Below, piece by piece: positions 30,534 to 63,843 of a stretch of 64,000 bases of DNA. Position 1 is the first letter of the stretch. Each line of letters opens with the position of its first letter. The stretch spans positions 21,817-85,816 of the forward strand of contig JAFPUE010000049.1 in NCBI GenBank assembly GCA_017395555.1, written 5' to 3'. This stretch comes from Ruminiclostridium sp. (GTDB taxonomy: Bacteria > Bacillota > Clostridia > Oscillospirales > Ruminococcaceae). The notes beneath the pieces are model-generated. The model was not told where the DNA came from. It worked only from the letters and a program-made list of their open reading frames with translations, and did not search any database. The position numbers and the translations under genes are program-made.

Positions 30534-30619
30534 GCGGAGGTGGTGGAATGGCAGACACGCTACTTTGAGGGGGTAGTGGGCGTTAGCTCGTGTGAGTTCA
30601 AGTCTCATTCTCCGCACCA
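30534..30619 (+). tRNA. tRNA-Leu (anticodon GAG)
   Basis: 86 nt with encoded CCA. Acceptor GCGGAGG pairs with TCTCCGC. The anticodon stem CTACT/GGTAG holds the loop TTGAGGG, with anticodon GAG after the invariant T. There is a long class II variable arm, and the T-arm GTGAG-TTCAAGT-CTCAT is normal. Its 3' part is the attachment site of the element to the right. Confidence 0.95.
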
Positions 30620-30620
30620 G
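30564..30620 (+). repeat. Left attachment repeat (att), 57 bp
   Basis: From TTTGAGG in the anticodon loop to one base past CCA. It is identical over 57 bp to 63787-63843; the bases on both sides differ. A tRNA 3' end with a tyrosine integrase next to it is the classic attachment site. Confidence 0.92.
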
Positions 30621-30630
30621 TGAAAAGCTG

Positions 30631-30674
30631 ATAACAGAGCCGTTTGTGAGTAATATCACGAACGGCTTTGTTAT
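30631..30674. terminator. Terminator shared by tRNA-Leu and integrase
   Basis: A 19-bp stem with two imperfect pairs, beginning ATAACAGAGCCGTT and closing with AACGGCTTTGTTAT. It lies just inside the element, so the tRNA terminator is supplied by the inserted DNA. Confidence 0.8.
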
Positions 30675-30724
30675 TTCATTTTGTGCGAAAACCCCTCAAT
30701 TCTAAACTCGTTCTAAACTGACGG

Positions 30725-31927
30725 TCATGCGGGGGTGTCAGCATCTCCGTTTTTTTCGCCATCATTATTATTCTGATGATAGAGATCTCTGAGTTCGTAG
30801 GCGTCGATCTTCCGCCGCTCCTTGCTTATATGCAAATAGATGTTGCTCGTGGTTTTTATGTCCGAGTGTCGAAGCCAGCTCTTTATCCGCTCTATGTCCC
30901 ACCCGAGGTCGTATAAAACGCTTGCTGCCGAGTGCCTCAAATCATGAAAACGCATATGAGGAAGTCCTGCCTTTTCTAACACTGCGCTGAACTTGTTGGA
31001 AATGAAGTCCGGGCGGTAGAAGTCGCCATTGGGTCTGCAAAAGGCATAGCCGTAGTCGAGATATGCCGAGCCCAGCAGCCGACGGTTCTCATCTCCCTTT
31101 GCTTTCAGCTCCAGCAGCATATCCTTGAATTCTGGCAGAAGCTCAAAAGTGGCGTTGCTGTCGGCGGTTTTGGTTTCATCGCTGTGAATTATAGATTTGA
31201 TCCTTACAATGGTGCTTTTGATCTCAAAGGTGTTCTCCTCAAAATCAATATTCTCCCACTTAAGCCCAAGTATCTCGGAGCGGCGCAGCCCGTAGAACAG
31301 AGTCATATAAACTATCGGGTAAAGCTCATGTCCCTTGAACGTCTCAAGGATCTGCTGAGCCTCTTTTGCTGTTTTATAGACTTTTTTGACCTGTTTTTCC
31401 CCCGAACCCTTTGGAATCTTAACTCCGTTTGCGGGGTTAGAGCTTATAAGCTCAAGCACATACGCATCATTAAGGCTGCTTTTGATTATGGTTGCAGACT
31501 TTTTAATTGAGGAGTACGATAATCCACCGCCCGTTTTGTGATTCCCGGATGTGTGCAAATAATTATAAAAGTCGAATATCACTTTAGGAGTGATGTTTTC
31601 GAGCTTAAGGTTTCTTTCCTCAAAGTAAGGGAAGATGTGGGCATTAGCAACCAACTCATAGGCTTCGCCTGTACTTTTGGCGATCGTATCCTTATGATCG
31701 TGAAGCCATTTTCTCAGATAAGGCACAAATAAGGTATCTTCCGGAGATCTTTCGTCTTCCAGATAGGAATACTTCTTAATGTAATCGTCGTGCTGTGCCT
31801 TAAGGAATTTTTTATTACCCTTTTCCTTCAGCCCTGTGGATATCCACTTCAGATTCTTTTCGCCGTTCACATAGTAGCATAATACGACGTACATAAAACC
31901 ATTTTTAGTTTGAATACTTGCTGTCAT
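30725..31927 (-). CDS. int: Tyrosine site-specific recombinase (integrase)
   Basis: 400 residues. An N-terminal arm-binding region with WISTGLKEKG, a SAM-like core-binding domain (about 75-190), then the catalytic domain. The catalytic residues are R in GLRRSEILGL, H..R in HDLRHSAAS, H in WLRHSDIKTTSNIYLH, and the nucleophile Y in that last motif. It should integrate and, with a directionality factor, excise the element at tRNA-Leu. The ATG at 31927 has AAGGAA 8 nt before it; the upstream ATG at 31951 does not. It is transcribed toward the tRNA. Confidence 0.95.
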   Translation of the reverse strand: MTASIQTKNGFMYVVLCYYVNGEKNLKWISTGLKEKGNKKFLKAQHDDYIKKYSYLEDERSPEDTLFVPYLRKWLHDHKDTIAKSTGEAYELVANAHIFPYFEERNLKLENITPKVIFDFYNYLHTSGNHKTGGGLSYSSIKKSATIIKSSLNDAYVLELISSNPANGVKIPKGSGEKQVKKVYKTAKEAQQILETFKGHELYPIVYMTLFYGLRRSEILGLKWENIDFEENTFEIKSTIVRIKSIIHSDETKTADSNATFELLPEFKDMLLELKAKGDENRRLLGSAYLDYGYAFCRPNGDFYRPDFISNKFSAVLEKAGLPHMRFHDLRHSAASVLYDLGWDIERIKSWLRHSDIKTTSNIYLHISKERRKIDAYELRDLYHQNNNDGEKNGDADTPA

Positions 31928-32028
31928 AATCGTTCGTTCCTTTCTTACCATACGAACGATGCCTCGATACTATTATAACATAATCCGTATGATTTTTTAA
32001 TTGTCAGATCATTAGAATAAACGAAGTT

Positions 32029-32081: not shown

Positions 32082-32306
32082 TTATTCCTTATTGCCGGCA
32101 ACGAGGTCGGCGGCAATCCCCTGAATGATGTTATCAAGGAATTCTTCGATGCTCGCTCTCGGGATTATGAACTTCTTCCCGATTCGCATACATCTGACGG
32201 TATGCGTCTTGAGGAGCTCATAAGCCTTGAACTTGCCGATGTGAAGTATCTCACACATCTGGTCGACGGTGAGTACCTCAGGATAGTTAGTAAGTTTTGT
32301 CTCCAT
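32082..32306 (-). CDS. Excisionase-family DNA-binding protein
   Basis: 74 residues, a winged-helix of the MerR/excisionase type: LTVDQMCEILHIGKFKAYELL is the helix-turn-helix and MRIGKKFIIPRASIEEFL is the wing and last helix. By position next to the integrase it is the likely directionality factor. AGGAGG-like sequence precedes the ATG. Confidence 0.85.
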   Translation of the reverse strand: METKLTNYPEVLTVDQMCEILHIGKFKAYELLKTHTVRCMRIGKKFIIPRASIEEFLDNIIQGIAADLVAGNKE

Positions 32307-32372: not shown

Positions 32373-33200
32373 TTATTTCCCATAATAATCGTTTGACCAC
32401 ATGAGGTTGTCGGCACGCCAATTTGTCCTGTCGCCGTCAATAAACTTAATCCACTTATGACCGTGCGGATTTGGCAGAAACGCCTCGGCTACAAGCTGGT
32501 ATCCCCGCTTTTGAAGCACTTCTCCGATTGTCATTATCCTGATTGTGCCATTTTTTCGCCGATTGTAATACTTTCCTTCCCTTCGTGTATCACGTATCCG
32601 TCCATGATTTGATACCTCGGCAAATGTTCCGGTAATCCTGATAAAATGTTCATCCGGATCTGCTAATTCCGGTACGGGTGTCTTGTACTTGTCGAACGAA
32701 TCATCGTACCAACGCCATACCTTATATAGCACTGTCATTTTCTTTCCGGCGCAGCATCTGTAAATAGCCGAGGGCTTAATTCCGTAATGATTTGCTGCTT
32801 CGGCACCCGAACGCCATGTCCTGATGAGCTGTCCGGAAAGGTCAAACTCCCTGACTATCTTTCCTTTGAAATAACGGCGGTCACGAACGGAATACAGATT
32901 TCGGTAGTCGTTATTTTTGAGATTTCTGTCTCCATGGATAACACGATAACTGTAATCGGGTTTGCCGCGGAAAGCTTCCAGCACCAGCTTGTCCACTGCC
33001 CTTACTCTTGATTTGTGTTTCTCGCGGTCATACAATCGTACATACAGAGCGTCATTCCTGACAAAGGGACATATCATTTGCTGGGTAATTGCATTCCTGA
33101 CCTTGCCGTTGTCCGATACCTCATACAGCGGAAGCTCCTGTATGCGGCGCCACTGCGTTCCATAGGAAACTGTTCGCAGATTTTCGTTTGTAATGCTCAT
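32373..33200 (-). CDS. NUMOD4/HNH endonuclease-like protein with two modules
   Basis: 275 residues. The first module has ELPLYEVSDNGKVRNA (NUMOD4) followed by an HNH_3-like core with VIHGDRNLKNNDYRNL. A middle NUMOD1-like stretch has GAEAANHYGIKPSAIYRCCAGK. A second NUMOD4-like part (EVSNHGRIRDTRR) and a second core with FIDGDRTNWRADNLMWS close the protein. The arrangement is of phage/mobile-element HNH proteins. The first core keeps the His and Asn residues; the second lacks the leading His. AGGAGG is 8 nt before the ATG at 33200. Confidence 0.7.
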   Translation of the reverse strand: MSITNENLRTVSYGTQWRRIQELPLYEVSDNGKVRNAITQQMICPFVRNDALYVRLYDREKHKSRVRAVDKLVLEAFRGKPDYSYRVIHGDRNLKNNDYRNLYSVRDRRYFKGKIVREFDLSGQLIRTWRSGAEAANHYGIKPSAIYRCCAGKKMTVLYKVWRWYDDSFDKYKTPVPELADPDEHFIRITGTFAEVSNHGRIRDTRREGKYYNRRKNGTIRIMTIGEVLQKRGYQLVAEAFLPNPHGHKWIKFIDGDRTNWRADNLMWSNDYYGK

Positions 33201-33330
33201 ATACATTACCTCCTTGATTAATAGTAGTTTCGGAATTCCATCATTGGGAACTCTCGCTTATATTATGATTACGACAAGGGTTCGATAAGAAAGTATTGAT
33301 TTGCTCCTTAAAAATATGTCTGATTAATAA

Positions 33331-34270: not shown

Positions 34271-35191
34271 ATGTCAAATCCTAAATCTCTGCACCAACAG
34301 GTCAACACAATCATTTACAGTCAGTTGCGATATGGTCAGTCAAAGTTCAAAGCCCGGCGCGATGAGGGCACGAAATACCCGAAGGGGATATTTTCTCACG
34401 ACACATTTGAAACCTATATGCAGCAGTGTCATCAGTTCATTAACTGGCTGAAAGGAAACGAGAAGCTGCCGAAGGTCAGAGCGATTGCCGATGCTCGAAA
34501 GTATGTCGGAATGTATCTGAACGAGTTGAAGCATAACGATTATTCAGCGTTTACTGTTCACACTACCGCATCCGCGCTTGCTAAACTGTTTGATTGCAGA
34601 ATGGAAGATTTCGGTGTCGATCTCGCCAAGCGGGAGAGGAAGGTCATTACGCGTTCTCGCAAAGAACCGGACCCGGAGTACGAACGCAAGCATCAGGATA
34701 TTGTTGACTTCTACCGGGGCTGCGGACTTCGGCGCTGTGAGATGCTGCGGCTGAAGGGTGAGGATGTGTACAGGAATGAGAACGGCGACGTTATCGTCCA
34801 TGTTCGCAAAGGCAAGGGCGGCAAGGAGCGTTTTGTGACCGCTCGCACTCAATATGCCGAACACATTCTGAAAATGGCCGGTGCTGTTCTGCCAAAAGAG
34901 AATGTTTTTCTCACGCTCCCGGGTAAGCTGCAAAATCATCGGTACCGTGGCGATTTCGCCAAAGGTCTGTATTATGAGCTCGCTCGACCTGTCGAAGAGA
35001 TCCCGCCGGAGGAACTATATATAATGCGTAAGGATCGTGCGGTCATAACAGAGTCGGGGTTATTGCGGAGAGTTACTTGTATAAGGATTGAAACAAACGC
35101 AGTCTTAAATCATTTTGCTAATTCCTCAACTATCTCGCCCAGCAGAGCGCAATTCTCGGGCGAGAGTTTTTTATTGCTTGCAGCGTTATGA
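34271..35191 (+). pseudogene. Truncated tyrosine recombinase-like gene
   Basis: The open frame encodes 306 residues. The first ~260 match the recombinase pattern: a core-binding region, then FYRGCGLRRCEMLRLKGEDV with the first catalytic Arg, then VHVRKGKGGKERFV. The H-x-x-R, second His and Tyr segments that should follow are missing, and the last ~45 residues run antisense through the XRE gene, so the 3' end was lost when the regulator/defence block arrived. AGGAGG precedes the ATG. It is not expected to be active. Confidence 0.7.
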
Positions 35192-35478
35192 ATACGAAAA
35201 GAATTAATAAGACGACCAACGATCTCTGTCTGGGTACTGCTCAGTCCCATGACGGAGATCATTTCACTTTTCTCCGTTCCGAGTAATTCATCTATGGATA
35301 TGTTGAATATGGCGGATATTGATCGTAAAGTATCTAGCGGCGGGGTAGATTGGTTGAGTTCATACTTGCTGACGGCGGTCACCGTCAGTTCGAGCGCCTC
35401 TGCCAGACGCTTCTGCGTATACCCGCGGCTTTTGCGTAAATTTTTCAGTTTCTCTCCGAAATCGTATGGCGTATTCAT
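35110..35478 (-). CDS. XRE-family transcriptional regulator
   Basis: 122 residues. The helix-turn-helix is at about 8-62 (KLKNLRKSRGYTQKRLAEAL, then TVTAVSKYELNQSTPPLDTL), with a C-terminal helical region for dimerisation. The ATG at 35478 follows GAGGG; the longer in-frame start is rejected. It is divergent from the defence cassette and probably controls it through the inverted repeat at 35523-35552. Confidence 0.85.
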   Translation of the reverse strand: MNTPYDFGEKLKNLRKSRGYTQKRLAEALELTVTAVSKYELNQSTPPLDTLRSISAIFNISIDELLGTEKSEMISVMGLSSTQTEIVGRLINSFRIHNAASNKKLSPENCALLGEIVEELAK

Positions 35479-35514
35479 AATTATGCCCTCATAGTGTAAA
35501 TGTGACGAAAACAC

Positions 35515-35617: not shown

Positions 35618-38600
35618 ATGGCAAAACTTGAGGAATTAACGGTAGGCAGCATAGTAAAAGGTCTGATAAACGAGGGAAATGTGACTATCGTAGCAGTCAC
35701 ATGGTATGGTGATTCGGTATTGCAGGTGTCGTTCAAGGATGACAAGGAACAGCTCGCAAGCCAGCTTGTATACCGTGAAGACGAGAACAACCTTGAAATA
35801 CAGAAAAGCAGCCTTCCGTGGTGCTTTGACGCAGATGGAAGCGTAATGCGTCTTGCATCGGAAGCGTACAGAATAAACCTTGCACACATATTTGACCCGT
35901 ATCTTGCGGTACATACATCGTCGATCGAGCCGTTGCCGCACCAGATATCGGCTGTATATCAGGAAATGCTGCCAAAGCTTCCGCTCCGGTATATACTCGC
36001 GGACGACCCCGGCGCCGGCAAGACGATCATGACGGGATTATTGATGAAAGAGCTCATCATCCGAGGCGATCTCAAACGCTGTCTGATAGTATCGCCGGGA
36101 AGTCTGTCGGAACAGTGGCAGGACGAGCTTTACAGCAAGTTTCATCTTAAATTCGACATACTCACCAATGACCGCATAGAATCGGCTGTCGGCGGAAATG
36201 TGTTTGCAGAAAGCAACTTCCTTATCGCGCGCCTTGATAAACTCGCAAGAAATGAAAATTTACAGGAAAAGCTCCGTATAACAGACTGGGATCTTGTGGT
36301 CATAGACGAGGCTCACAAGATGTCTGCGACAGTGTGGGGTGGGGAGATAAAATATACCGCTCGCTTCAAGCTCGGCAGAATGCTGTCAGAGCTTACTCGG
36401 CATATGCTCCTGCTGACTGCAACTCCGCATAACGGAAAGAACCAGGACTTTCAACTGTTTTTATCACTTATAGACCAGGACAGGTTTGAGGGTGTAACCC
36501 GGTCAAGCAATCAGTCCATAGATACTGCGGACATTATGCGCCGTCTTGTCAAAGAAGAACTGCTGAAGTTTGACGGAACCCCGCTTTTCCCCGAAAGACG
36601 TGCATATACAGTAAATTACGATCTGTCCCCGCAGGAAGCTGAACTATACCGCGCCGTGACCGATTATGTACAGGAAGAATTTAACCGTGCCGAGCGGCTT
36701 GACGAGAGCCACAGAAGCACGGTCGGCTTTGCGTTGACTATTTTGCAGAGAAGGCTTGCATCTTCGCCCGAAGCTATCTACCAGTCGCTGCACCGCAGGA
36801 AAGAACGCCTTGAACACAGGCTTGCCGAGGAACGAATCGGCAGGCACGATGAAGATATAGTATCAGCAACATCTCAGAACGAGTATGATGATGACGATAT
36901 GCCCTCCGAGGAAATGGAGGAAGAAGAGGAGCGCGTAGCAGATCAGGCTTCCGCTTCCACCACAATAAAAGAGCTCGAAGCCGAGATCGCTACCCTCAGA
37001 AAACTGGAAACGCTTGCCGGCGAGGTGCGGGCAAGCGGAAAGGATAAAAAATGGGAGGAGCTTTCACTGCTCCTTCAGGATAACGAGTGTATGTACTCGC
37101 GGGACGGACAGCGCGAGAAGCTGATCATCTTCACCGAGCACCGCGATACTTTGCGCTATCTCTCGGATAAGATACGTTCACTGCTCGGGGACGACAACTG
37201 TGTCGTAACTATTCACGGCGGTATGACAAGAGACGAGCGCCGCAAGGTCGAAGCCCTGTTCAAGCAGGATAAGGACGTTCGCATACTTATCGCGACGGAC
37301 GCGGCGGGCGAAGGTATCAACCTCCAGCGCGCCCATTTAATGGTAAATTACGACCTACCGTGGAATCCGAACCGTCTTGAACAGCGTTTCGGACGAATTC
37401 ACCGTATCGGACAGACTGAGGTCTGCCACCTGTGGAATCTCGTATCGAAGGAGACCCGCGAAGGTGCGGTATTCCAGCGGTTATTTGAAAAACTCGAAGA
37501 AGAACGCGAGGCTCTCGGTGGAAAGGTCTTCGACATACTCGGCAAGATCATGTTTGATAACCGGCCTCTGCGCGAATTGCTGATAGAGGCGATACGCTAC
37601 GGCAACGATCCCGAGGTGCGTAAAAAGCTGCAGCAGGCAGTCGATAATTCGATAGATATTGAGAAAATACGAAAGCTGATCGACGAGAACGCGCTTACCG
37701 AAGACACCATGGATGTGGGCAAGGTCATGGCGATACGTGCGGAGATGGAGCGCATCGAGGCGCACAAGCTCCAGCCGCACTTTATCGAATCGTTCTTCAT
37801 TGAGGCTTTCGGTCATCTCGGCGGCAAGCTCTACAAACGCGAGCACGGACGCTACGAGATAACTTATGTTCCCGGAAAGATACGCAACCGCGATATGCAG
37901 ATAGGCTTCGGAGAATCGGTATTGACGAAATACGAGCGTATATGCTTTGATAAGGCCGACTGCAACCTCCCCGGTCTTGCTCCCGCGGCGCTGATATGTC
38001 CGGGTCACCCGCTTCTCGAAGCAACGAGCGACCTTATCCGCGAAAAGTATCGCAGCGTTATGAAGCAGGGCGCGGTGTTCATCGACGAGAACGACTTCGG
38101 CACGGACGCACGTCTGCTGTTCTATATCGAGGACTGCATACAGGACGGCGTTGTGCTCCCGAACGGCTCAAAGCGCGTCATATCTAAGAATGTGCATTTC
38201 GTTGAGCTGAAAGAGGACGGCACTGCAATAAACGCAGGCTACGCGCCGTATCTCGATTATCGCAGCGCGAACGAAGATGAATACAAAGCGATACGCGGGT
38301 TTATAGACACTCAGGACTGGCTCACAAAGGGCGTCGAGGAGAAAGCAAAGGGTTACGCGATATCCGAAATCATCCCGCGGCATTTCTCCGAGGTGCGCGA
38401 ACACAGGCAGAAAATGGTGAGTAAGGTCGCAAAAGCTGTACAGACGCGTCTGACTGCGGAGATACAGTATTGGGATTTCAGAGCGGCTGAACTCAAAGAA
38501 AAAGAAAATGCCGGTAAAACCAACTCAAAGCTCAACTCCGACAACGCGCACAGAAAAGCGGAGGAGCTCGAAGCGCGTATGCACCGCAGGCTCGCTGAAC

Positions 38601-39124
38601 TCGAAAAAGAGAAATCTGTGTCCGCGGCCCCGCCGATCATTGTGGGCGGAGCACTCGCTATCCCGCTGGGACTGCTTTATAAGCTCACAGGAAAACCAAT
38701 GCCCGATATGTTCGGGAGCGGTGACAGAAAAGCCGTAGAGCTTGCCGCGATGAAAGCGGTCACGGATATAGAAAACTCGCTCGGATTCATCCCTCGGGAT
38801 GTAAGCCGCGAAAACTGCGGATATGACATAGAATCCGTGATACCCGACGACAAGCGGACCTGCACCGAAAGCGGCATACGCTTCATTGAAGTCAAGGGCA
38901 GGACAAAGGGCGCAGATACCGTAACCGTCACGAGAAACGAGATACTAACCGCGCTCAATAAACCCGAATCGTTCATACTCGCGATCGTCGAGGTTGACGG
39001 CGACAATACAAAGACCGTATATCTGCGCTGTCCGTTCACCGTGAAGCCCGACTTCGCGACAACGGGCATAACATACAACATCGCCGACCTGATAAGCTCG
39101 TCGGAAATACTTCTTGAAAGGTAA
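35618..39124 (+). CDS. SNF2-family helicase with DUF3883 (anti-phage cassette)
   Basis: 1168 residues. The N-terminal ATPase domain has Walker A PGAGKT (131-136), DEAH (230-233) and LLTATPHNGK. The helicase C domain has TIHGGMTRDERRK, ATDAAGEGINLQ and RFGRIHRIGQ. An acidic insert lies near 425-450. The C-terminus is DUF3883-like, with IRFIEVKGR resembling a PD-(D/E)xK nuclease core. It should translocate on DNA and may cut it. In other genomes this protein is found with DUF1156 and DUF499 genes in defence islands. The next gene starts 8 bp after its stop. Confidence 0.88.
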   Translation: MAKLEELTVGSIVKGLINEGNVTIVAVTWYGDSVLQVSFKDDKEQLASQLVYREDENNLEIQKSSLPWCFDADGSVMRLASEAYRINLAHIFDPYLAVHTSSIEPLPHQISAVYQEMLPKLPLRYILADDPGAGKTIMTGLLMKELIIRGDLKRCLIVSPGSLSEQWQDELYSKFHLKFDILTNDRIESAVGGNVFAESNFLIARLDKLARNENLQEKLRITDWDLVVIDEAHKMSATVWGGEIKYTARFKLGRMLSELTRHMLLLTATPHNGKNQDFQLFLSLIDQDRFEGVTRSSNQSIDTADIMRRLVKEELLKFDGTPLFPERRAYTVNYDLSPQEAELYRAVTDYVQEEFNRAERLDESHRSTVGFALTILQRRLASSPEAIYQSLHRRKERLEHRLAEERIGRHDEDIVSATSQNEYDDDDMPSEEMEEEEERVADQASASTTIKELEAEIATLRKLETLAGEVRASGKDKKWEELSLLLQDNECMYSRDGQREKLIIFTEHRDTLRYLSDKIRSLLGDDNCVVTIHGGMTRDERRKVEALFKQDKDVRILIATDAAGEGINLQRAHLMVNYDLPWNPNRLEQRFGRIHRIGQTEVCHLWNLVSKETREGAVFQRLFEKLEEEREALGGKVFDILGKIMFDNRPLRELLIEAIRYGNDPEVRKKLQQAVDNSIDIEKIRKLIDENALTEDTMDVGKVMAIRAEMERIEAHKLQPHFIESFFIEAFGHLGGKLYKREHGRYEITYVPGKIRNRDMQIGFGESVLTKYERICFDKADCNLPGLAPAALICPGHPLLEATSDLIREKYRSVMKQGAVFIDENDFGTDARLLFYIEDCIQDGVVLPNGSKRVISKNVHFVELKEDGTAINAGYAPYLDYRSANEDEYKAIRGFIDTQDWLTKGVEEKAKGYAISEIIPRHFSEVREHRQKMVSKVAKAVQTRLTAEIQYWDFRAAELKEKENAGKTNSKLNSDNAHRKAEELEARMHRRLAELEKEKSVSAAPPIIVGGALAIPLGLLYKLTGKPMPDMFGSGDRKAVELAAMKAVTDIENSLGFIPRDVSRENCGYDIESVIPDDKRTCTESGIRFIEVKGRTKGADTVTVTRNEILTALNKPESFILAIVEVDGDNTKTVYLRCPFTVKPDFATTGITYNIADLISSSEILLER

Positions 39125-52593: not shown

Positions 52594-52651
52594 AATAGAC
52601 AAAGTATTGCCCTTACTACCGGCTGTGAGCCATAAAAACGGAGATGATAAA

Positions 52652-53356: not shown

Positions 53357-53357
53357 A

Positions 53358-54914: not shown

Positions 54915-55412
54915 ATGATCACAAACACAATGTCAGCGCTGATGTCGGCCGGCACCACTCTTAAACAGGCTCAGGTGCAGCAGAGTGCAGTTAGAAAAGA
55001 CGAGGGACACGCTGGACTGCTGAAATCGGAGATCGAGCATTCCGTCAAGACCGATACAAGCGCGAAACAAGCCGAACTGAAAGAGACCGAGGAACACGCT
55101 GCCGATCTGAGATCGAAGCAGACAGACACGCTTGAAGCTGCGACCGCCGAGCTTCGCGACAATATCGACAGAGCCCGTGAAGTCGACCGCGAGGAAACCA
55201 AGAAAGAGGCAAAGGCAGCCGAAAAGAAGAAGTCCGAAAAGACCGAGAAGGACGACAAGACCGGAAAGCTCGGAAATGCTTCCGAAACGGACGAAAACGG
55301 CGAGAATGACGGCGTTAAGGCAGTCACGGGAACGGAGACAGTCGAGGTCGCTCTGCCCGATGAAACTCCCGACCCGATACGAGTTCACAAGCCTATTGAC
55401 ATCACGGTCTGA
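54915..55412 (+). CDS. Unknown Lys/Glu-rich coiled-coil protein, first of five
   Basis: 165 residues, very hydrophilic. After a short Met/Ala-rich start, residues 25-130 are Lys/Glu/Ala coiled coil, followed by an acidic tail. It has no signal peptide and no recognised family. AAAGGA is 9 nt before the ATG. It opens the operon that follows the LytTR promoter; a chaperone-like or regulatory partner of the next proteins is only a guess. Confidence 0.65.
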   Translation: MITNTMSALMSAGTTLKQAQVQQSAVRKDEGHAGLLKSEIEHSVKTDTSAKQAELKETEEHAADLRSKQTDTLEAATAELRDNIDRAREVDREETKKEAKAAEKKKSEKTEKDDKTGKLGNASETDENGENDGVKAVTGTETVEVALPDETPDPIRVHKPIDITV

Positions 55413-55424
55413 GGGGGTGAGCCT

Positions 55425-55955
55425 ATGGGAATGAGGATTGACAGCTCGTATAACAATTATCCCGTAAACACAAGTACACAGATCGATACCGCGCGCAAGA
55501 CCGCGAATGACGAGCTAGCGTATTTGAAGGACAAGTTCAAGGATTACAGCTTTGTCGCCGCGAATTTCAAACAGGGCATGCGCTACGGCTCGAACGCGAC
55601 CACGAATGTCGCTATTTCTCCGCAATTTTTGAAGAAAATGGCGAACGACCCGAAGCTCGCGGAGGAATACGAAAAAGAGATCGCAAATATGAAGTCCTGC
55701 GATCAGTGGTGCCGCGCCAACATTAGCGCTCGCGGGGATAAGCTCGTCGCGGACGGCTGGGCGATAGACAAGGACGGCGGGATAAGCCGTTGGAGCATAG
55801 GCACACACGACGACCGCACAGCTCGCGTGAAGTCGCCCACGGAGTACGCGAATAAGCTGTATGAGAGGAAAAAAGAAAAAGGCAGGATAGTTCTGAAAAG
55901 TCGAACGAATACTGTAAAGAACAAGCCCGCAGCACGGTTCGACAGAAAAGCGTAA
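55425..55955 (+). CDS. DUF6033-like protein, module A
   Basis: 176 residues. After a short Tyr/Asn-rich start comes a helix (ELAYLKDKFKDYSFVAANF) and then the shared module VAISPQFLKKMANDPKLAEE. The later part has a small beta unit (AIDKDGGISRWSIG) and a basic tail. The pattern fits the DUF6033 family, whose function is unknown. GGGGGTGAG precedes the ATG. The next two genes carry diverged copies of the module. Confidence 0.6.
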   Translation: MGMRIDSSYNNYPVNTSTQIDTARKTANDELAYLKDKFKDYSFVAANFKQGMRYGSNATTNVAISPQFLKKMANDPKLAEEYEKEIANMKSCDQWCRANISARGDKLVADGWAIDKDGGISRWSIGTHDDRTARVKSPTEYANKLYERKKEKGRIVLKSRTNTVKNKPAARFDRKA

Positions 55956-55968
55956 CGGAGGTGAGCGT

Positions 55969-56865
55969 ATGGCAGTCAACGGTATAGGTGCTTTGCAGTA
56001 CCGGAACATTTACAATCAAGCGAACAGCCGCGTTGAAAGCAACAGCGAGCAGCCCGAAAAAGCCGCTGTACAGGACAAGATCGAGTTCTCCGCTGACAGC
56101 CTCGCGCAGTCGGCGGCACTCAGGAGCTTTCGTGGTAAATATCCCGCGTTGAGCATTTCGGTAGGCTCCGAAATGAATTACAGCAAGGACAGGAAAACCG
56201 GCACGGTCGCTGTAAATGAGCACTTTCTGAACAAAGCAATGAACGACCCCGAAGCCGCGAAAACCATGTCCGACTTGATATACGGTATCGACAAAGCCGA
56301 GAAAACAGTCGCAGCGTATTACAATTCTCTCGGCGGCGTGACAGAAAGAACAAGTCATTGGTACATCGACGAAAACGGGAATTGCTATAATTTCAGCTAC
56401 ACTCGCAGAGACGACAAGTTGAACAAAAAGCTGCGCGAAGAAGCCGAAAAAGACCGTCAGGAGTGTATCGAGCGCAGTATTGAAAAATCCCGGGACGCGG
56501 AGGAAGTTCGGCCGGAAGAAGCCGCTGAAGATGAAGAAACCGTCGAAGATGAAGACGCTGCCGAGAGCGACGAAGAGATCGAGTCGGAGTCTGTCGGAAA
56601 GAGCATGGGCATAAACGCCGCGAAACTCGCGCGAATGCTCGCCGCCGCAAAAACACGGTCGCAGGTGCAGTCGGTAATGGACATGATACAGTCAGATCTC
56701 CGCGAGTGCGACGCGGGCAAGGAGCAGGGATATGATGTTGATGAGGCGTCGGTGTCGGCAGCCGAAAACCTGCTTGAAGAAGCAAAATCCCGCATGAGCA
56801 GCGCCGAAGACCGCGAGCCTACGCCGCAGGAGGAAATGATGTCGGCGTTAGCGTCGTTGATGTAA
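55969..56865 (+). CDS. DUF6033-like protein with acidic tail
   Basis: 298 residues. It starts MAVNGIGALQYRNIYNQ, an N-terminus reminiscent of flagellar hook/rod-type proteins; the module SFRGKYPALSIS...VAVNEHFLNKAMNDPEAAKT follows near 45-95. A highly acidic, low-complexity segment (about 175-210) links to a helical C-terminus. It has no signal peptide. It begins 13 bp after the previous stop with GGAGGTGAG. Confidence 0.6.
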   Translation: MAVNGIGALQYRNIYNQANSRVESNSEQPEKAAVQDKIEFSADSLAQSAALRSFRGKYPALSISVGSEMNYSKDRKTGTVAVNEHFLNKAMNDPEAAKTMSDLIYGIDKAEKTVAAYYNSLGGVTERTSHWYIDENGNCYNFSYTRRDDKLNKKLREEAEKDRQECIERSIEKSRDAEEVRPEEAAEDEETVEDEDAAESDEEIESESVGKSMGINAAKLARMLAAAKTRSQVQSVMDMIQSDLRECDAGKEQGYDVDEASVSAAENLLEEAKSRMSSAEDREPTPQEEMMSALASLM

Positions 56866-56879
56866 AAGGAGATGTTCCC

Positions 56880-57560
56880 GTGAGCAATACCATGTATATA
56901 TCCGCGCAGACCGCGTATCTGAAAGCATTTACGGATAGCATAGCGCCTACAAAATCCACAGAAACGGAGTTCGCGCAGGCGCTCAATAACTGCATAAACG
57001 AACGGTCACTCGACGACTACAAGGCATATATCAAGGAGCGCGTGTCCTCGCTCGTCCTGCACCCGACGCAGTTCGGCGACACCTACGCCGTGAGCATATC
57101 CGACGCGGGTTATCGGGCAATGCAGGCTGACCCGCAGTACGAAAAGTGGGTGCTTGACCAGATACACAGCGCATTCTCGGCGGAAGTACCCTCGTGGCTG
57201 CGGCAGCTCGGCGGCAACCAATACCACACACTTCAATTCGGCAGCAAGCCCGAGCAGTTCCGGCAGGACACTTACTCAACGGGCGACGGCGCACTGAAAA
57301 AAGAAGAGAAGGAAGAATACTGGAAACAGCTTAAAGAGATACGGGACAAGCGGCGCGAGGAGTTTGAGAAAATGCTCAAAAAGAAGCGTATCGCGCTTGC
57401 ACAGGCACAGGCTCTCGCATTGGAACGACGGCTCGCGTTTGCGGATATGATCGAATCGGACACCGATATTCCCGACGCTATGAGCTACGCCGAGGCTAAT
57501 GTCAGCGAGGTCTCGCCGATTCTATTTATTGATATTTCCGAAATATTAGCAATGATGTAA
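56880..57560 (+). CDS. DUF6033-like protein, diverged module
   Basis: 226 residues from GTG, 8 nt after AGGAG. The module is YIKERVSSL, then YAVSISDAGYRAMQADPQYE near 60-80, aligned with the two upstream proteins. A charged coiled coil (about 140-190) and a hydrophobic end (SPILFIDISEILAMM) follow. No signal peptide. Gene spacing of 14 bp supports one operon. Confidence 0.6.
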   Translation: MSNTMYISAQTAYLKAFTDSIAPTKSTETEFAQALNNCINERSLDDYKAYIKERVSSLVLHPTQFGDTYAVSISDAGYRAMQADPQYEKWVLDQIHSAFSAEVPSWLRQLGGNQYHTLQFGSKPEQFRQDTYSTGDGALKKEEKEEYWKQLKEIRDKRREEFEKMLKKKRIALAQAQALALERRLAFADMIESDTDIPDAMSYAEANVSEVSPILFIDISEILAMM

Positions 57561-57573
57561 GGGGGTGAGAAAT

Positions 57574-58254
57574 ATGAGAAGTTACGGATTGAGCCGATAT
57601 ACGCCTTATAGCAGATACCGTCCGACCTCGCTCTATAACCGCAACCGGACGAGCATATACCAACAGCTCGCGTCGAAGTCAAACGGCGCAAATGCGGCCC
57701 GCAAAACGTATCAGACCACATCTGCGGCAAAGACGACCTATACGACAAATCTGTCAGATGCCGTATCGGGTATCGCGTCGTCGGTGTCCGATCTCAGCAA
57801 AGCTATGTCGGGAACCGACCGCGAGAAGATGTACGACGCTGCAAAGAGCTTTGTTGACAGCTACAACGATATGTACTCGGCAGTCAGCAGTTCCCGTAAC
57901 AGCTTTGTTTCGGGGCGCACGTCGGTCATGACGAACACCGCAAAGGCGTATTCGGGAACACTCGAAAAAGCCGGTGTTACTGTCGGCAAGGACGGGAAGT
58001 TGTCTATCGACAAGGAGAAGTTCATGGAAGCCGATGACAAGGCACTTAGCTCCGCACTGGGCAGGAACTCCACATTCACAGGCTCCGTGGTATCACAGGC
58101 GGTGAATGTCTCGCGTTACTCGGACAGCTTTTCGTACACGAGCTACGGCGGTTACAACAGCTATGGCGGCTACTCCAAAAACAGCCTGTTCGATTACGCC
58201 GGAACAACGCAAAGCAGTGTGCTTGCAGGGTATCTGCTTAATCAGTGGATATGA
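57574..58254 (+). CDS. Protein resembling the FliD (hook cap) C-terminus
   Basis: 226 residues. The Arg/Tyr/Ser-rich start (about 1-40) is followed by helices, FVDSYNDMYSAVSSS, then AGVTVGKDGKLSIDKEKFME and SALGRNSTFTGSVVSQAV, the order seen at the end of flagellar hook-associated FliD proteins. No other flagellar gene is in the window. The last ~45 residues are Ser/Tyr/Gly-rich repeats. The ATG at 57574 is 5 nt from GGGGGTGAG. The 3' half is duplicated at 59416-59736. Confidence 0.6.
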   Translation: MRSYGLSRYTPYSRYRPTSLYNRNRTSIYQQLASKSNGANAARKTYQTTSAAKTTYTTNLSDAVSGIASSVSDLSKAMSGTDREKMYDAAKSFVDSYNDMYSAVSSSRNSFVSGRTSVMTNTAKAYSGTLEKAGVTVGKDGKLSIDKEKFMEADDKALSSALGRNSTFTGSVVSQAVNVSRYSDSFSYTSYGGYNSYGGYSKNSLFDYAGTTQSSVLAGYLLNQWI

Positions 58255-58394: not shown

Positions 58395-59329
58395 TCAAAC
58401 CATGCCCAACCCGTTTTTGCGAATATCATTCAATTCCTCGGCAGTCAAACAGCCGGACTGATACAAGCGCAGGTACTCCTTCGAAACATCGGAATCAAAG
58501 ATCAATACATCATCTGAATTTATTGTTACATTGACTCCTTTTCGATAAAGTTGTCCGATCGGATGTTTTTTCATATCGGACACGCGGCCTAAAAGCACAT
58601 TGCTCGTTGGTGTGATATTAAGCCTTATATTACGCTCTACAAGGAAGTCGATGACGCTTTCATCTTGTACTGCGTTTATACCGTGCTGCACTTCCTGTAA
58701 ATGTAATATATTAACAGCAGAAACGACATCCTGCGCAGTACCCCATTCGCCCACATGGGCTTTAAAAACAAGTCCATTATCAATAGGGACGAAATTTTCT
58801 ATTGGCTGCGCCATCTCATCACCATATAAATCAATCGAATAAAATTCTTTATGCCCCCAGAAGTGATTCAAACACTCCTCCAAATAATCAATTGGACAGT
58901 GCCGTGAAAGCCCTATCTGTAAGCGCAGTTCAATTTCAGGTGCGATTCTTTCATTAGTTTCCTGAAACGCCGCAATTAATTCTTCTATATTGTTATGGAA
59001 AAACTCATTAAGTCCCCATACATCTTCACCGATTTCCAGTACAGTTACTCCGTCTTTTTTGCTTGTACAAAAGTTGCTTCGATCAGCAGCTTACGCCCTT
59101 CCGTGCTATTAAACCGATTGCTGATATACTGACCGCTCCAAGCGTCCATTTCCTTCATAGAACCGAGCTGACATGAGATGGGTTCTATATTATATCCTGT
59201 TTTCGATAAGATATATTCTCTGCAACCACCCAAAACAAAATGATTATGTAGATCCGACTTTGGAAAACGTCGAATCAAGTCCAAGTCGCCACTTTTAATT
59301 GCTTCAATAAAAATAGAATCTTCCCACAT
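58395..59329 (-). pseudogene. Adenosine deaminase-like gene, frameshifted
   Basis: Two adjoining frames form one protein of about 311 residues. The first (59329-59045) has PKSDLHNHFVLGG, the metal-binding HxH. The second, which continues upstream of its apparent start as GVTVLEIGEDVWGLNEFF, has AHVGE, VQHGI, TPTSN and NSDD, all deaminase motifs. The break is in a run of six T (59055-59060; six A on the coding strand); one added A restores the frame. The C-terminus is also short, and another frame after NGLGMV runs FDKSRFVGG for about 20 codons, so a second lesion is possible. It should convert adenosine to inosine if expressed whole. Confidence 0.75.
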
Positions 59330-59387: not shown

Positions 59388-59416
59388 ATTATAGCACAAA
59401 GTTCCCATAAAGTCAA
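59388..59416 (-). promoter_or_regulatory. Promoter of the adenosine deaminase-like gene
   Basis: On the minus strand TTGACT (59416-59411), 17 bp, TATAAT (59393-59388). The -35 box abuts the start of the duplicated segment. Confidence 0.7.
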
Positions 59417-59800
59417 ATACCGCAAAGGCATACTCCGGAACACTCGAAAAAGCTGGTGTTACTGTCGGCAGGGACGGAAAGCTGTCTATCGATAAGGAGA
59501 AGTTCATGGAAGCCGATGATAAGGCTCTAAGCTCTGCACTTGGCAGGAACTCCACATTTACGGGCTCCGTGGTATCACAGGCGGTGAATGTATCGCGCTA
59601 CTCGGACAGCTTTTAGTACACGAGCTACGGCGGTTATAACAGCTATGGCGGCTACTCAAAAAGCAGCCTGTTCGATTATGCCGGAACAACGCAAAGCGGT
59701 GTGCTTGCAGGGTATCTGCTTAATCAGTGGATATGATACTGAGACTCCATAAAATCACAGACTACATTACAACGCCCGCGGGGAGAGATCGCGGGCGTTG
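59416..59800 (+). pseudogene. Duplicated 3' fragment of the FliD-like gene
   Basis: It matches 57934-58321: the same frame reads AGVTVGRDGKLSIDKEKFME and SALGRNSTF, but a TAG replaces the Ser codon after SDSF (near 59615) and the 5' half is absent. It includes the downstream terminator. It is either a truncated tandem copy or the result of a duplication that enclosed the deaminase gene. Confidence 0.85.
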
Positions 59801-59815: not shown

Positions 59816-60492
59816 AACCCCCGGCTGTGCCGGGGGTTCAAAAGAGCTTTAGCGTTGAACAAAAAACTCCAACGTGGTAAAATAGGAATGCGGTTTGGCA
59901 ACTGCATCAACCCACGAGGGAGGCATGTCAAGTGAATGACAATAATAGTTTAGCACATACGAGCTGGAATTGCAAGTACCATATAGTATTTGCGCCGAAA
60001 TATAGGCGATAAATACTGTTAAACCAAAATCGAGTTGAAATGGGGAAAATATTACGCGAATTATGCGAGTGAAAAGGTATAAAAATAATCGAGGCAGAAA
60101 TCTGCTCCGATCATGTACATATGTTTGTAGAAATACCACCAAAAATGAGCGTATCAAGTTTCATGGGATACCTGAAAGGGAAGAGCAGCGTAATATTTCA
60201 CGAAAGGCACGGGAACTTGAAGTATAAATACGGAAACAGGTCATTTTGGTGCCGTGGATTTTATGTAGATACAGTTGGAAAAAATGCAAAAAGAATTGCA
60301 GAATACATTCAAAACCAACTGAAAGAAGATATGATGACCGATCAGATAACCCTTAGAGAACTTGAAGACCCGTTTACGGGTAGCAAGTAACAGACTTTTC
60401 TGCAAGTGTCAGACCGTATTTGCGTCTTCAGACGTATGCCAGAGCGTAGCCTTTTAGGCTCCTTTGAAAATCCACTGGCTACGCCGGTGGAT
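59816..60492 (+). mobile_element. IS200/IS605-family element, decayed
   Basis: The left hairpin AACCCCCGGC-TGT-GCCGGGGGTT (59816-59838) and the right hairpin ATCCACTGG/CCGGTGGAT (60470-60492) bracket a tnpA gene, as in IS200 elements, which have subterminal palindromes instead of inverted repeats. Exact ends are not defined. Confidence 0.75.
59932..60390 (+). pseudogene. tnpA: IS200-type TnpA with two in-frame stops
   Basis: Reading from GTG 59932 gives SLAHTSWNCKYHIVFAPKYRR, so the first 26 codons are clear; then TAA (60010-60012), a further 19 codons, TGA (60070-60072, probably once Trp) and the rest. The HUH motif DHVHMFVEIPP and the catalytic tyrosine in EYIQNQL are kept, ending DPFTGSK. 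Both stops are single-base changes. It cannot make full transposase. An 89-codon remnant is open from 60121. Confidence 0.9.
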
Positions 60493-61240
60493 CTTTACTA
60501 GAGCATCTCAAAACTGTTTTAAAAAATGAAATAATTGTGTAAAACGCAAGGAAAGGCTCCAAAGGAGTACTGATGCATGGCATAGAGACTTGATTGGTAT
60601 GAAACCGTTATAAAGTGCCCATAAACGTGCAGGATGCACGCATACAAGGCAATTTCTATACGTTAGTTGTCGGTAAAAGTAGCTCTTTTTCTCTCAAATA
60701 GGTTTTGGGGGTTACTTATATTTGTTCTTCTTTGCTGACAACTTTCAAAGCATTAATAATATCTTGACAATATTTTTTGAATAGAGTATAATATAATAGA
60801 TGGGTTATATTCATTTGGCTTAATGATATGATAGGAAATCAGATAATAAAACCATCTATGGCTAATATACATCACAGTTTTGTGAAAAATATTTGAACTG
60901 TTATTGAATTCCACTTAAAACAGTTTTTAATAAACTGTTTAAGAGAATTATTAAATAATATGATAGAAAGCATTTGAGAGATGCAGAGATTTGGATTAAA
61001 TATTTTTATTCTTATCATTTGGATCCAATAATATGACTATTACAAACTGTATTTGGCTTCTTGGCTTCTGTTCAATCTGAAAGAGTAATTACAATAAATG
61101 TCAATCTATTACCATTATGCGAATTATTGGGTAGACGTCAAGTAAATATGTCATACTGAAGCATATAATTATAAAAATACTTATATGTGATACTGTATTA
61201 AATACACTTATAAAAGATATTTGTCGAATTGGGGGATTTT
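60493..61240. other. AT-rich gap with a long leader for the PIN-like gene
   Basis: No gene is seen. A consensus promoter is at 60764-60792, so the message of the next gene would have a leader of about 440 nt. It contains a hairpin (CTTAAAACAGTTT/AAACTGTTTAAG, 60914-60950 area) and no frame with a good ribosome site. No riboswitch class is recognised. Confidence 0.5.
60764..60792 (+). promoter_or_regulatory. Promoter upstream of the PIN-like gene
   Basis: TTGACA (60764-60769), 17 bp, TATAAT (60787-60792), followed by a second TATAAT five bases on. Confidence 0.8.
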
Positions 61241-63427
61241 ATGAAAGTCTCATTATTACCTGAAGAGTCGGGAATACTAATGCAGCGTGACCTTTTTCGT
61301 TTATCTACAACACTATATGCTGATAATTCTGATCCCGATGTCTATTCTTCTATTGAAACTCAATTTCAAATGATAAAATATATTATATCGGAAGAAAAGA
61401 ATGTATTTTTGAGTATAGATAAATTAAAAAACTTGTTTTATGATGTTTTTAAATATCATATTTCAGAACAAGAGGTCGCTAATATTGTTGAAAATCACAA
61501 AGGACTATTTGAAATAAAGAATGACACCAATGAAATAGAAATCCGATTAAATAGCGAGATTTATAGTGAAACTGTTAAATGCCAAAAGTATAATATCGAT
61601 TACTATATTGATAAATATATTTCTGAATATGGTATTTCAGATGCAGATTCATTTAAAGATGCTATTCATAGATACTTATATGAATTAACTACAACAAATA
61701 TTAATACATATAAATTTCTTATCTTTGGAAAAGATGAAAAAAAGTATTCGGATAGTGAGCTGTTCATTGATATAACTCAGTTTAATGAGGATGATATCAA
61801 TCGTATTCACGATTTCATAGTGTGGCATGATCCTGACAAAAATATGGCGTTAGGAAACATTGTATTTACATGTTTAGAATACTGTATGCTAGTTAACGGG
61901 GACAGACCGAATAGTTTGATTTTAAGTAGTATAAGGAAAAGAGAAATTTATCTTGATACAAATATTATTTTTAGAGCATTAGGAATAAATGGAAGCGAAC
62001 GGAAGAAAAATGTTCTTTGCTTTTTAAGAAAATGTTTACAGGCCAAAATTAAAATAATTATTTCAAGTCACACAAAAATGGAATTTGACAATACAATTAC
62101 CTATTACTTGTCAAAAATATCTGCATTTCCAAGAGGCAACATTTTTCCTGGCGCGTATGAACAAATTAGCGACTATAATTTGTTTTCATTTTACGAAGAT
62201 TGGAGATCTCAGCACAAAAACTTGCCGTTTAAGTTTTTTGAGTTTTACATTAATTCCGAATACGAAAAATTGATTAAAAAGTTTAAAATACAATCTGGCG
62301 AACAAATTCCTTCATCAATATATGATTCAGATAGATTTAAGACTAAGCGAAACAATTATTCTTCATCTATAAGTAATAAAAAACAGGAAATTAAATACGC
62401 ATTTATATCTGATGATTATACATATTCTAAAAGAGACAGTCACGATGCAACTATAATAACTTATATTGAATATTTAAGAGACAATTGTAAAGAAAAGAAA
62501 GATATATTTTTAGTTTCATCAGACAAAGTACTTAGAGCATGGGATATGGCGCGTTCTGAAGCCAGATACCCTGTTGTAATATATCCAAGTCAATTGTTTT
62601 TAGTATTAATAAAACTATGTGGAAGATCAGATGATGATTTTGAGAGTTTTGTAAGTTTTATTAATGTTAGACCACAGCACAATCAAATATCAACTGAAAA
62701 AGCAAACGCTATTTTATCAGGAATAAGTACCATTACTGAGGATATAAAAGAGCAAAAATTAATATTGTCTGCAGTTATAGAAAAAGAATACCAGAATATT
62801 TTAAATAATAATGAAGAAGAGTTATTTAAGCATGTTCAAACTTTTAGCCAAAATTACTTAGAAAAAGAACTCAATTCACAAAGAGAAGAAATAATAAAAC
62901 TAAATAATATAGCGAATGAAAACCAGAATAAGATTGAAGCCTTATCCCAAAACGATATTGAGCAAAAACGATTAATTGAAAAGTTGACCAAAGATATTAA
63001 TAATAGTAATGATATAATAAACAAAAAAGAACAAGCTATGAAAGAAAAAGCTATTATTGATAATCAAAATAAAGATAAAATGTTTAATTATGCAATTAAA
63101 AAGATATATCCATTATTCTTTTTAAGGCGAATTATAGTTCCAATCATTTTGATTTTAATCTGTATTGTATTTATAGCTTTTGTATTTTTACAGTTTTTCT
63201 TTACAGATTGGGAATATAATTTTTCAGTAATTTTCTTAAACTGGTTAAAGTCAACATATTTTGGAGGAGGGGCTGCAGAATATACGTACATTCCAGATAC
63301 TGTATTCTTTGCTTTTGTTGTTTTTCTAATGAAAAAATTTATGTGTAATCCTTTTTCAAAATTAAAGAACAAAGAATATAAAATGAAAAAAGCAGAAAAG
63401 TACTTAAAAAAATACAAACTTTTATAA
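61241..63427 (+). CDS. Membrane-anchored PIN-like nuclease candidate
   Basis: 728 residues, very AT-rich. The N-terminal 230 residues are helical and unrecognised. A PIN-like domain follows: D239 in IYLDTNIIFRALG, E281 in SHTKMEFDN, D402 in KRDSHDATI and D428 in FLVSSDKVLRAWD give the four acidic residues expected for RNA cleavage. A coiled coil (about 545-615) leads to two membrane helices (about 630-655 and 685-703) and a basic tail. The closest known logic is a toxin or anti-phage effector held at the membrane, but I know no family with this whole layout. The ATG at 61241 follows GGGGGA; the TTG at 61229 overlaps it. Confidence 0.65.
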   Translation: MKVSLLPEESGILMQRDLFRLSTTLYADNSDPDVYSSIETQFQMIKYIISEEKNVFLSIDKLKNLFYDVFKYHISEQEVANIVENHKGLFEIKNDTNEIEIRLNSEIYSETVKCQKYNIDYYIDKYISEYGISDADSFKDAIHRYLYELTTTNINTYKFLIFGKDEKKYSDSELFIDITQFNEDDINRIHDFIVWHDPDKNMALGNIVFTCLEYCMLVNGDRPNSLILSSIRKREIYLDTNIIFRALGINGSERKKNVLCFLRKCLQAKIKIIISSHTKMEFDNTITYYLSKISAFPRGNIFPGAYEQISDYNLFSFYEDWRSQHKNLPFKFFEFYINSEYEKLIKKFKIQSGEQIPSSIYDSDRFKTKRNNYSSSISNKKQEIKYAFISDDYTYSKRDSHDATIITYIEYLRDNCKEKKDIFLVSSDKVLRAWDMARSEARYPVVIYPSQLFLVLIKLCGRSDDDFESFVSFINVRPQHNQISTEKANAILSGISTITEDIKEQKLILSAVIEKEYQNILNNNEEELFKHVQTFSQNYLEKELNSQREEIIKLNNIANENQNKIEALSQNDIEQKRLIEKLTKDINNSNDIINKKEQAMKEKAIIDNQNKDKMFNYAIKKIYPLFFLRRIIVPIILILICIVFIAFVFLQFFFTDWEYNFSVIFLNWLKSTYFGGGAAEYTYIPDTVFFAFVVFLMKKFMCNPFSKLKNKEYKMKKAEKYLKKYKLL

Positions 63428-63786
63428 TCCATTGTTACTATTGATTCCAAAAAGCTTGAATACAGCACCACGTCACTCAAAAATCTGATTGATTAGCCGG
63501 AACTCGACGACATAGAGTACTGAATAAAGCTTGGGGGCTAGAATCTCTACACATTCCCGTATTATCTGACATTCATGCTGAAAAGATAGCTGTGAGAAAA
63601 GCAGAGATTATGGTTTTTTTATATAATTAAAAGCTGAGGCATCGTTCTAAACTAATTTCCGGAAAATTTCCGCAAATTGTTTTTTAATTCATTTCATTTG
63701 GCTGCATTCGACAATTGAGTTACTTCAAAGTAAAACGAATCTATTGAAAAGTAACAACACAGACGTAATATAATTACATTTCCGAG
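63428..63786. other. Right-end region of the element without genes
   Basis: AT-rich with no supported gene. Some stretches (63440-63530) look like broken coding sequence. It leads into the right attachment repeat. Confidence 0.5.
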
Positions 63787-63843
63787 TTTGAGGGGGTAGT
63801 GGGCGTTAGCTCGTGTGAGTTCAAGTCTCATTCTCCGCACCAG
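63787..63843 (+). repeat. Right attachment repeat (att), 57 bp
   Basis: Identical to 30564-30620, the 3' part of tRNA-Leu including CCA. It lacks the 5' half of the tRNA, so it is a target-site copy and not a gene. Confidence 0.92.

Follow-up and report, generated by a model that had tools for sequence, protein, structure and literature searches.

A 33-kb segment at tRNA-Leu(GAG) of a Ruminiclostridium genome: a probable integrative genomic island with Hma genes

Two exact copies of a tRNA 3' end lie 33 kb apart in a Ruminiclostridium sp. genome. Do they mark the ends of one mobile element, and how would such an element move? The window analysed here, the whole stretch under study, comprises 64,000 nt of GenBank assembly GCA_017395555.1 (contig JAFPUE010000049.1; G000:C37:21817-85816 in our numbering), a draft of 137 contigs that is 86.67% complete and 4.23% contaminated. 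It was compared with a set of 71 genomes of the genus, referred to by G numbers. We conclude that the segment between the copies is very probably one integrative genomic island, placed by a tyrosine integrase in the 3' end of the tRNA-Leu(GAG) gene. The island appears real, well delimited and ordinary in kind; its feature of note would be an attachment core that stays identical while the arm words are private. Coordinates are collected in Table 1.

The two ends of the island

The repeat consists of the last 56 nt of tRNA-Leu(GAG) and one base past the tRNA. The window contains two copies of it and no more, with zero mismatches and 33,223 bp apart. It was absent from all 100 shuffled windows with up to three mismatches allowed, and a chance origin of the pair was therefore rejected. 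At the left junction the tRNA is whole and is followed by a hairpin that is probably its terminator; at the right junction there is just the 57-nt 3' copy. We also considered several islands within the 33 kb and rejected them: there is no third core copy, the best partial matches being 11 nt exact and 13 nt at 92%.

The integrase gene just inside the left copy is full length. Core-binding and catalytic domains are recognized by Pfam, and the catalytic residues were judged by eye. The protein aligns end to end with the integrase of G034 (75%). Its best relatives of solved structure include chains 3nkh ('Integrase') and 6emy ('Int protein'), the latter of which we take to be Int of Tn1549. Relatives were found at 28 loci in genome contigs, where two pieces of one genome reach 95 and 91% and the other 26 lie at 22–33%, and at 7 loci in viral contigs (24–33%). 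The adjacent 74-aa HTH_17 protein is a probable excisionase; its match to a PHROG excisionase is only 0.0045 and ranks behind other DNA-binding families. In the uncultured Clostridia bin.40 (L104 480-1100) a similar island left end with the integrase end is present at 89% DNA identity, joined to a dispersed repeat and a transporter gene in place of tRNA-Leu.

The ends also carry matching arm-type sites. The word TTCTAAACT occurs three times in the 64 kb, every time at an element end; 0.41 occurrences are expected, and three or more were seen in 1 of 100 shuffles. In the relatives we set the left pair of words, spaced by 11 bp and some 80 nt in from the end, against the word 143–144 nt inside the right end. 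Arm positions (left +80/+91, right −143/−144) are identical in our island, in G002 (GTTCGCACA) and in G034 (TTCTAATGA). A clear tRNA-side left pair together with a right end was available in four genomes (our own, G002, G034 and G088), and left equals right in three of the four. In these three the agreement is 9/9, with three different words, and between one of the three and another it is 4–6/9. The left word of our island reaches at most 7/9 in any of six other right ends. The right end of G090 agrees 9/9 with the left pair of G034, and the right ends of G090 and G034 are near copies. The tRNA-side end of G011 has no 11-bp-spaced arm pair. In a free search of the 300-nt right ends, words were placed at 10/10 or 9/9 in our island, G034, G090 and G002 (0.000–0.002 of 2,000 shuffles each). 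A placement control adds little: our own word fell in 69 of 200,000 random slots, about 66 being expected from the three known sites of the window alone. Beside the right arm site stands a pair of ATTTCC words, seen by eye 11–12 bp apart also in the right ends of G002, G034 and G090; these are possible excisionase sites.

The N-terminal part of the integrase is 86% alike between G002 and G075, both with GTTCGCACA, and 57–71% alike in other pairs. We rejected this as separate evidence for tracking of the arm words, since other domains show the same order of likeness. With more doubt than confidence, we suggest that islands at this site may share the attachment core while each has a private arm word, changing in step at both ends and with the integrase, at fixed distances.

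Table 1. Features of the island and its borders (window positions; ORF, open reading frame; HTH, helix-turn-helix; IS, insertion sequence)
Position	Strand	Feature	Basis
30534..30619	+	tRNA-Leu(GAG), target gene; 3' end is the left repeat	ARAGORN
30564..30620	+	left attachment repeat, 57 nt	exact match
30633..30672	+	hairpin (AACAGAGCCGTT...AACGGCTTTGTT) right after tRNA	sequence
30700..30719	+	two arm-type sites TTCTAAACT, 11 bp apart, 80 nt inside left copy	sequence
30725..31951	-	tyrosine integrase, 408 aa	Phage_integrase E 5.7e-20 + SAM-like core-binding domain
32082..32306	-	HTH_17 protein, 74 aa, upstream of integrase, same direction	Pfam HTH_17 8.7e-10
32373..33206	-	NUMOD4/HNH endonuclease	profile matches
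34271..35191	+	second, incomplete tyrosine recombinase-like ORF	below Pfam cut-off
35110..35514	-	Cro/C1-type HTH regulator	Pfam
35618..39124	+	HmaA helicase, 1168 aa	PADLOC HmaA 1644.5 bits, 1-1163 of 1168
39133..41892	+	HmaB methyltransferase (DUF1156), 919 aa	PADLOC HmaB 1164.6 bits, 3-917 of 919
41882..45247	+	HmaC ATPase (DUF499), 1121 aa	PADLOC HmaC, 184-1121 of 1121
45686..46435	+	249-aa protein	no family match in Pfam, PADLOC, PHROGs, NCBIfam
46581-46910	+	HTH_3 regulator	Pfam
47309-47650	-	HTH_3 regulator	Pfam
47864..48895	+	transglutaminase-like protein	Pfam Transglut_core 1.5e-13
48916..49623	+	235-aa protein	PHROG 1987 (unknown function, 7e-08)
49889..50188	+	DUF6809	Pfam
50235..51257	-	FAD-dependent oxidoreductase	Pfam
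51283-51618	-	ParE toxin	Pfam
51615-51887	-	Phd/YefM antitoxin	Pfam
52478..54725	+	LytTR response regulator + GHKL histidine kinase	Pfam
54915..58254	+	five-gene block: 165 aa, DUF6033, 298 aa, 226 aa, FliD_C-like 229 aa	Pfam
58395..59329	-	broken adenosine deaminase	Pfam match on 58395-58883 only; 59045-59329 start by eye, no family match
59416..59784	+	369-nt second copy (92%) of 57934-58302 (covers FliD-like 3' end)
60121..60390	+	IS200-like transposase remnant	Pfam Y1_Tnp 8e-17, profile 55-121 of 121
61229..63427	+	732-aa protein	no family above cut-off; PIN-like motifs by eye
63645..63653	+	right arm-type site TTCTAAACT, 143 nt before right core copy	sequence
63655..63671	+	two ATTTCC words 11 bp apart, beside right arm site	by eye
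63787..63843	+	right attachment repeat, 57 nt	exact match
63844..64000	+	right flank: 17 nt of dispersed repeat, then left end of IS21-like element (63861-64000)	sequence

The tRNA-Leu site in the genus

A 55-nt core with up to three mismatches is present in 13 of the 71 genomes, and six of these have two copies (G000, which is the source genome, G002, G011, G034, G070 and G088). Parts of other elements at the site were read, together with 12 core-bearing tRNA loci. Island-type left-end sequence follows the tRNA at eight of them (our own, G002, G034, G072, G075, G076, G079, G088) and does not at the other four (G011, G060, G070, G089). The sequence also stands behind distal core copies in genomes with tandem forms at the site (G070, G088 and G090). 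The core copies lie 13.7 kb apart on one contig in G088 and 14.4 kb apart in G011, where transposase, PIN_8, kinase, EAL, transporter and AAA_14/DUF4143 genes stand in between. Behind tRNA-Leu, G072 has an island-type left end and, next to it, genes for an HTH_36 protein and for a Mob_Pre relaxase (1.8e-27), which we take to be of the MobV type; G075 has an integrase (59% to our own) with DnaB-like and UvrD genes, and G076 a serine recombinase with MobA/MobL. Integrase fragments are present in other islands at the site. Our island appears to belong to a family of integrating islands with the tRNA-Leu site in common. Just upstream of tRNA-Leu, pointing away from it, G002 (L039 7431-11945) and G034 (L041 1390-4262) have genes that by eye resemble phage-head genes; one of them has a weak Pfam capsid match, 0.00076, below the cut-off.

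Empty-type tRNA-Leu junctions were found in three other species, G060, G070 and G089. In G060 the CCA of the tRNA is followed by GGCGCAACGGCGCCTGCGAATCCC..., repeats and then rplU, as read by eye. The right copy of our island is followed by GGCGCGACGGCGCCTGCG and then the IS21-like element, and the distal copy of G002 by GGCGCAACGGCGCCTGCGAATCCC. The alignment of G060 with our right side spans 74 bp at 98.6% and includes the 57-nt repeat, so that 16 of 17 flank bases are equal. By eye, the flank of the distal copy in G034 resembles the tRNA flank of G070 (C190) and, more loosely, that of G004; the G034/G070 likeness makes a second empty-site pair, independent of the dispersed repeat. In G089 tRNA-Leu is followed by a plain hairpin.

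To the left of the island lies host DNA, a V-type ATPase operon in which all five proteins scanned are V-type ATPase subunits. On the right, another contig of the same genome, C109 (L035), opens with the window's final 141 nt and contains the IS21-like element at 1-2760, with IstA- and IstB-like proteins. CCTGCG precedes the element in the window and recurs after its end in C109; beyond it come repeats and then lysS and other genes. C109 is most likely the continuation of the window contig, and fits as such, yet the sequence after CCTGCG is dispersed repeat. This repeat of about 100 nt (GCGAATCCCGTCTCGGG...), sometimes in arrays, was seen at L035:2760-2950, in L138 and L040 and at places in G000, G002, G011 and G007. 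It abuts the CCA of tRNA-Leu in G060 and the distal core copy in our genome and in G002.

The locus thus shows direct repeats of a tRNA 3' end, one of them within a whole tRNA, an integrase adjoining the tRNA, and occupancy that varies across species, with empty-type sites or other islands in relatives, as in tRNA-integrated islands. The first-pass annotation of the window had taken an exact 57-bp tRNA-Leu repeat, recurring at 33,223 bp, to fix both ends of an element with integrase and excisionase-like genes just inside the left copy. The ARAGORN call and an exact-match search agree on the repeat, and Pfam (Phage_integrase, HTH_17) on the two genes. The ends are further backed by the matched arms and by other islands and empty-type junctions in the genus. 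The first pass had also proposed a search for an empty site in related strains, and this was answered in part: the three empty-type junctions exist, all in other species. Among the literature matches listed we found no paper that deals with this tRNA-Leu site in these bacteria, which does not prove that none exists.

Cargo of the island

The main cargo is a complete Hma system at 35,618-45,247, with HmaA, HmaB and HmaC in order, full length, abutting and on one strand. Judged by these matches, the three genes are a predicted anti-phage system. Hma was presented as a candidate three-gene system found in 26 phyla (PMC8565338, extract). HmaB is labelled a DNA-adenine methylase in PADLOC-DB and an m5c methyltransferase in the extract of the naming paper (PMC8565338). 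In HmaC the PADLOC match begins at residue 184 and is preceded by a Swt1-like HEPN domain at the N terminus (residues 19-135). Full-length HmaB is present in 2 of the 71 genomes (our own and G002), with partial matches in G030. The region 33.6-45.6 kb is syntenic with contig C87 of G002 at 79–91% DNA identity, near another tyrosine integrase, and the incomplete recombinase-like ORF of our island has an 87% amino acid relative beside Hma in G002. DUF6602 and a CBASS-type SMODS/AGS_C gene come after the Hma operon in that contig (L172 6978-19866).

The remaining cargo includes regulators, a ParE–Phd/YefM pair, a LytTR/GHKL signalling pair and proteins with few or no family matches (Table 1). The 369-nt duplicates (57934-58302 and 59416-59784) bracket the broken adenosine deaminase gene. 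The segment 60-63.8 kb has a low GC content, and the 732-aa protein encoded there has a match in one of the 71 genomes, our own.

Weighing the explanations

Several points weigh against one island with matched ends. The first concern the arms. The words were noticed first and tested afterwards, so the test was not blind. In G002 and G034 the left and right ends are on different contigs, and in the free search foreign left-end words reach 9/10 in three right ends, our own included (0.015–0.018). In G088 the tRNA-side pair, GTTCGCACA, agrees with the right end at the next core by only 5/9; the left end of a second island comes after this mismatched right end, and the two are probably ends of different elements. 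A repeat pair without matched arms does not prove one element, as G088 indicates; the arms of our own island match.

Other points concern the site. With one genome per species in the comparison set, occupancy contrasts are between species only. The window ends with contig C37, which leaves 157 nt of right flank beyond the repeat. The match of G060 is weak, the repeat behind the right copy being dispersed in these genomes. Its tRNA-Leu also adjoins neither of the flanks seen here, the V-ATPase side or the lysS side. In G070 the tRNA is of the empty type, and a different contig carries a core copy with an island left end behind it; mixed strains may account for both.

The last point is the wide occurrence of part of the cargo. 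The stretch 49.8-58.3 kb, from DUF6809 to FliD_C-like, is common in whole or part to G011, G070, G060 and others. The FliD-like protein has a relative of at least 65% in 12 of the 71 genomes, own included (24 of 71 when every match at E 0.001 is counted). The LytTR/GHKL DNA is more alike than lysS in G011 (94 vs 82%), G070 (93 vs 83%), G076 (92 vs 82%, 1,901 nt), G079 (92 vs 84%, 478 nt) and slightly in G060 (89 vs 87%); it is less alike in G090 (80 vs 83%), G034 (80 vs 88%), G002 (76 vs 82%) and G085 (73 vs 84%), and G089 has no match. We read this block as mobile cargo, not core host DNA, because in G060, G002 and G011 it stands beside mobility genes. In G060 (C28, L166:1252-16657) the LytTR/GHKL/DUF6033/FliD-like block lies between exact 45-nt end copies of tRNA-Ala(CGC), 15.4 kb apart, in a mobilizable element with NikA-like, relaxase and integrase genes, an integrative mobilizable element (IME). 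Some 4 kb past the LytTR–FliD-like block G002 has a NikA/MobC gene, and in G011 the block stands between an integrase and a serine recombinase. The cargo had been described at first pass as almost all defence, toxin, signalling and unknown genes; we amend this to a mosaic of modules that also occur on other mobile elements of the genus.

As an integrated island, the element would work as follows. The core-binding and catalytic domains of the integrase would act on the 57-nt core. The N-terminal part is arm-binding in integrases of the Tn916/Tn1549 type, and here it would bind TTCTAAACT. The HTH_17 protein would shape the ends for excision, and the hairpin would serve the tRNA as terminator. 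Recombination between the repeats would give a circle and an intact, empty tRNA gene; the island probably excises and integrates by itself. Passage to a new cell would need a helper (the conjugation machinery of another element, phage or transformation), or it may no longer happen. The cargo, chiefly the Hma anti-phage system, would have been assembled from modules on other mobile elements of the genus.

How the island travels is the point on which explanations differ most. Mechanical calling of ORFs of at least 45 aa in 30600-64000 gave 178, mostly overlapping or antisense; 36 of these (30 and 6 small ones) were given to Pfam and 10 ORFs to PHROGs. In agreement with the first pass, which had recognized no transfer or virion genes, no relaxase, coupling-protein, type IV secretion or virion family was found in the 36 island ORFs with Pfam or the 10 with PHROGs. 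Transfer would then be either helped or lost. On the same 36 ORFs, the island lacks the relaxase and type IV secretion genes of an integrative and conjugative element and the relaxase of an IME with its own (iMOB). It still has the integrase, whereas a cis-mobilizable element (CIME) retains att sites and has lost integration and transfer genes. Virion, packaging or capsid-remodelling genes, as in a prophage or satellite, were likewise absent from the ORFs scanned (36 in Pfam, 10 in PHROGs).

At a little under even chances, the island is a helper-dependent mobilizable one (iOriT-type IME), excised by its own Int and Xis and with an unrecognized origin of transfer (oriT) served by the relaxase and secretion machinery of another element; this refines our best explanation and does not exclude it. 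Helpers may exist: our own genome has, on other contigs, two Relaxase-family matches (C107, and C121 with one internal stop) and two T4SS-DNA_transf matches (C32, C116). In further support, the G072 element at tRNA-Leu encodes the Mob_Pre relaxase with the HTH_36 protein, and in G060 the cargo block rides the NikA/Relaxase element. Integrated elements without a relaxase that ride on helpers are described in the extract of PMC11389934. Against this, five mob-region stretches (the DNA before the G060 mob genes, two G072 pieces and the two relaxase contigs of our genome) share nothing with the island beyond the common left end at E 0.05; similarity search cannot recognize an unlike oriT.

Slightly less favoured is a stranded island that has kept its integrase and lost its transfer genes. 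It would now be handed on only by descent, transformation or phage, and its mosaic would stem from insertions and deletions that recurred at a hot spot. The broken adenosine deaminase, the IS200 remnant, the incomplete second recombinase and the 369-nt duplication fit such decay, as do the integrase fragments in other islands at the site and the tandem forms in G088, G090 and G070. The full-length integrase, the arm sites matching at both ends and the identical repeats of our own island speak against it.

We consider a phage satellite or remnant prophage improbable. The NUMOD4/HNH and integrase proteins have phage relatives in PHROGs, and the G075 element at the same site has integrase, DnaB-like and UvrD genes, against which stands the absence of virion and packaging families from the 36 and 10 ORFs scanned. 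Most unlikely of all is that the repeats are unrelated, a relic 3' tRNA copy bounding host DNA by chance or an assembly join: the GC content near that of the left flank, the wide sharing of 50-58 kb and the contig stop just past the right copy would fit, but the arm sites match at conserved distances at both ends, the contig overlap of 141 nt exceeds the 57-nt repeat, which should then not cause a false join, and the shared block has att-like repeats of its own in G060. A host segment between two repeats was therefore rejected as the main explanation, on the tRNA-Ala(CGC) element of G060 and the matching arms of our own island.

For the integrative island, then, the locus provides a worked example of defence cargo on an island with an integrase and without a recognized transfer gene. 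It points to a tRNA-Leu site used by many species of one genus, and to modules that islands at different tRNAs have in common. With the arm sites comes a simple test on sequence alone, which may separate true element ends from other att pairs; it passes here and fails in G088. If the private arm words hold true, islands could stack in tandem on one tRNA and leave singly, because each integrase would act only on ends with its own arm word. The arm sites make such separate excision of same-core tandem islands testable. Tandem accretion at shared sites has been described for integrated elements (PMC5704250, extract).

Compared with known systems, the defence cargo is alike to Hma as given in the extract of PMC8565338 in the order HmaA-HmaB-HmaC and in full length, and may differ by the N-terminal Swt1-like HEPN stretch of HmaC (19-135). 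With the relaxase-less hitchers (iOriT) of PMC11389934, again from an extract, the island has in common its own integration module and that no relaxase was found; the oriT of the island was not identified by similarity. Integrases of the Tn916/Tn1549 type are alike in that our integrase is a sequence relative of 6emy with SAM-like and catalytic domains. Tn916 uses many sites according to the extract of PMC11838328, whereas our island has a tRNA site with an identical 57-nt core. With the IMEs and tRNA-borne islands of Firmicutes, as far as the extract of PMC5704250 describes them, it shares site-specific integration, att repeats, tandem accretion with other or decayed elements and accessory cargo. 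It differs from these IMEs in that no relaxase was found, in its tRNA-Leu(GAG) site, and in arm words that vary while the core stays identical.

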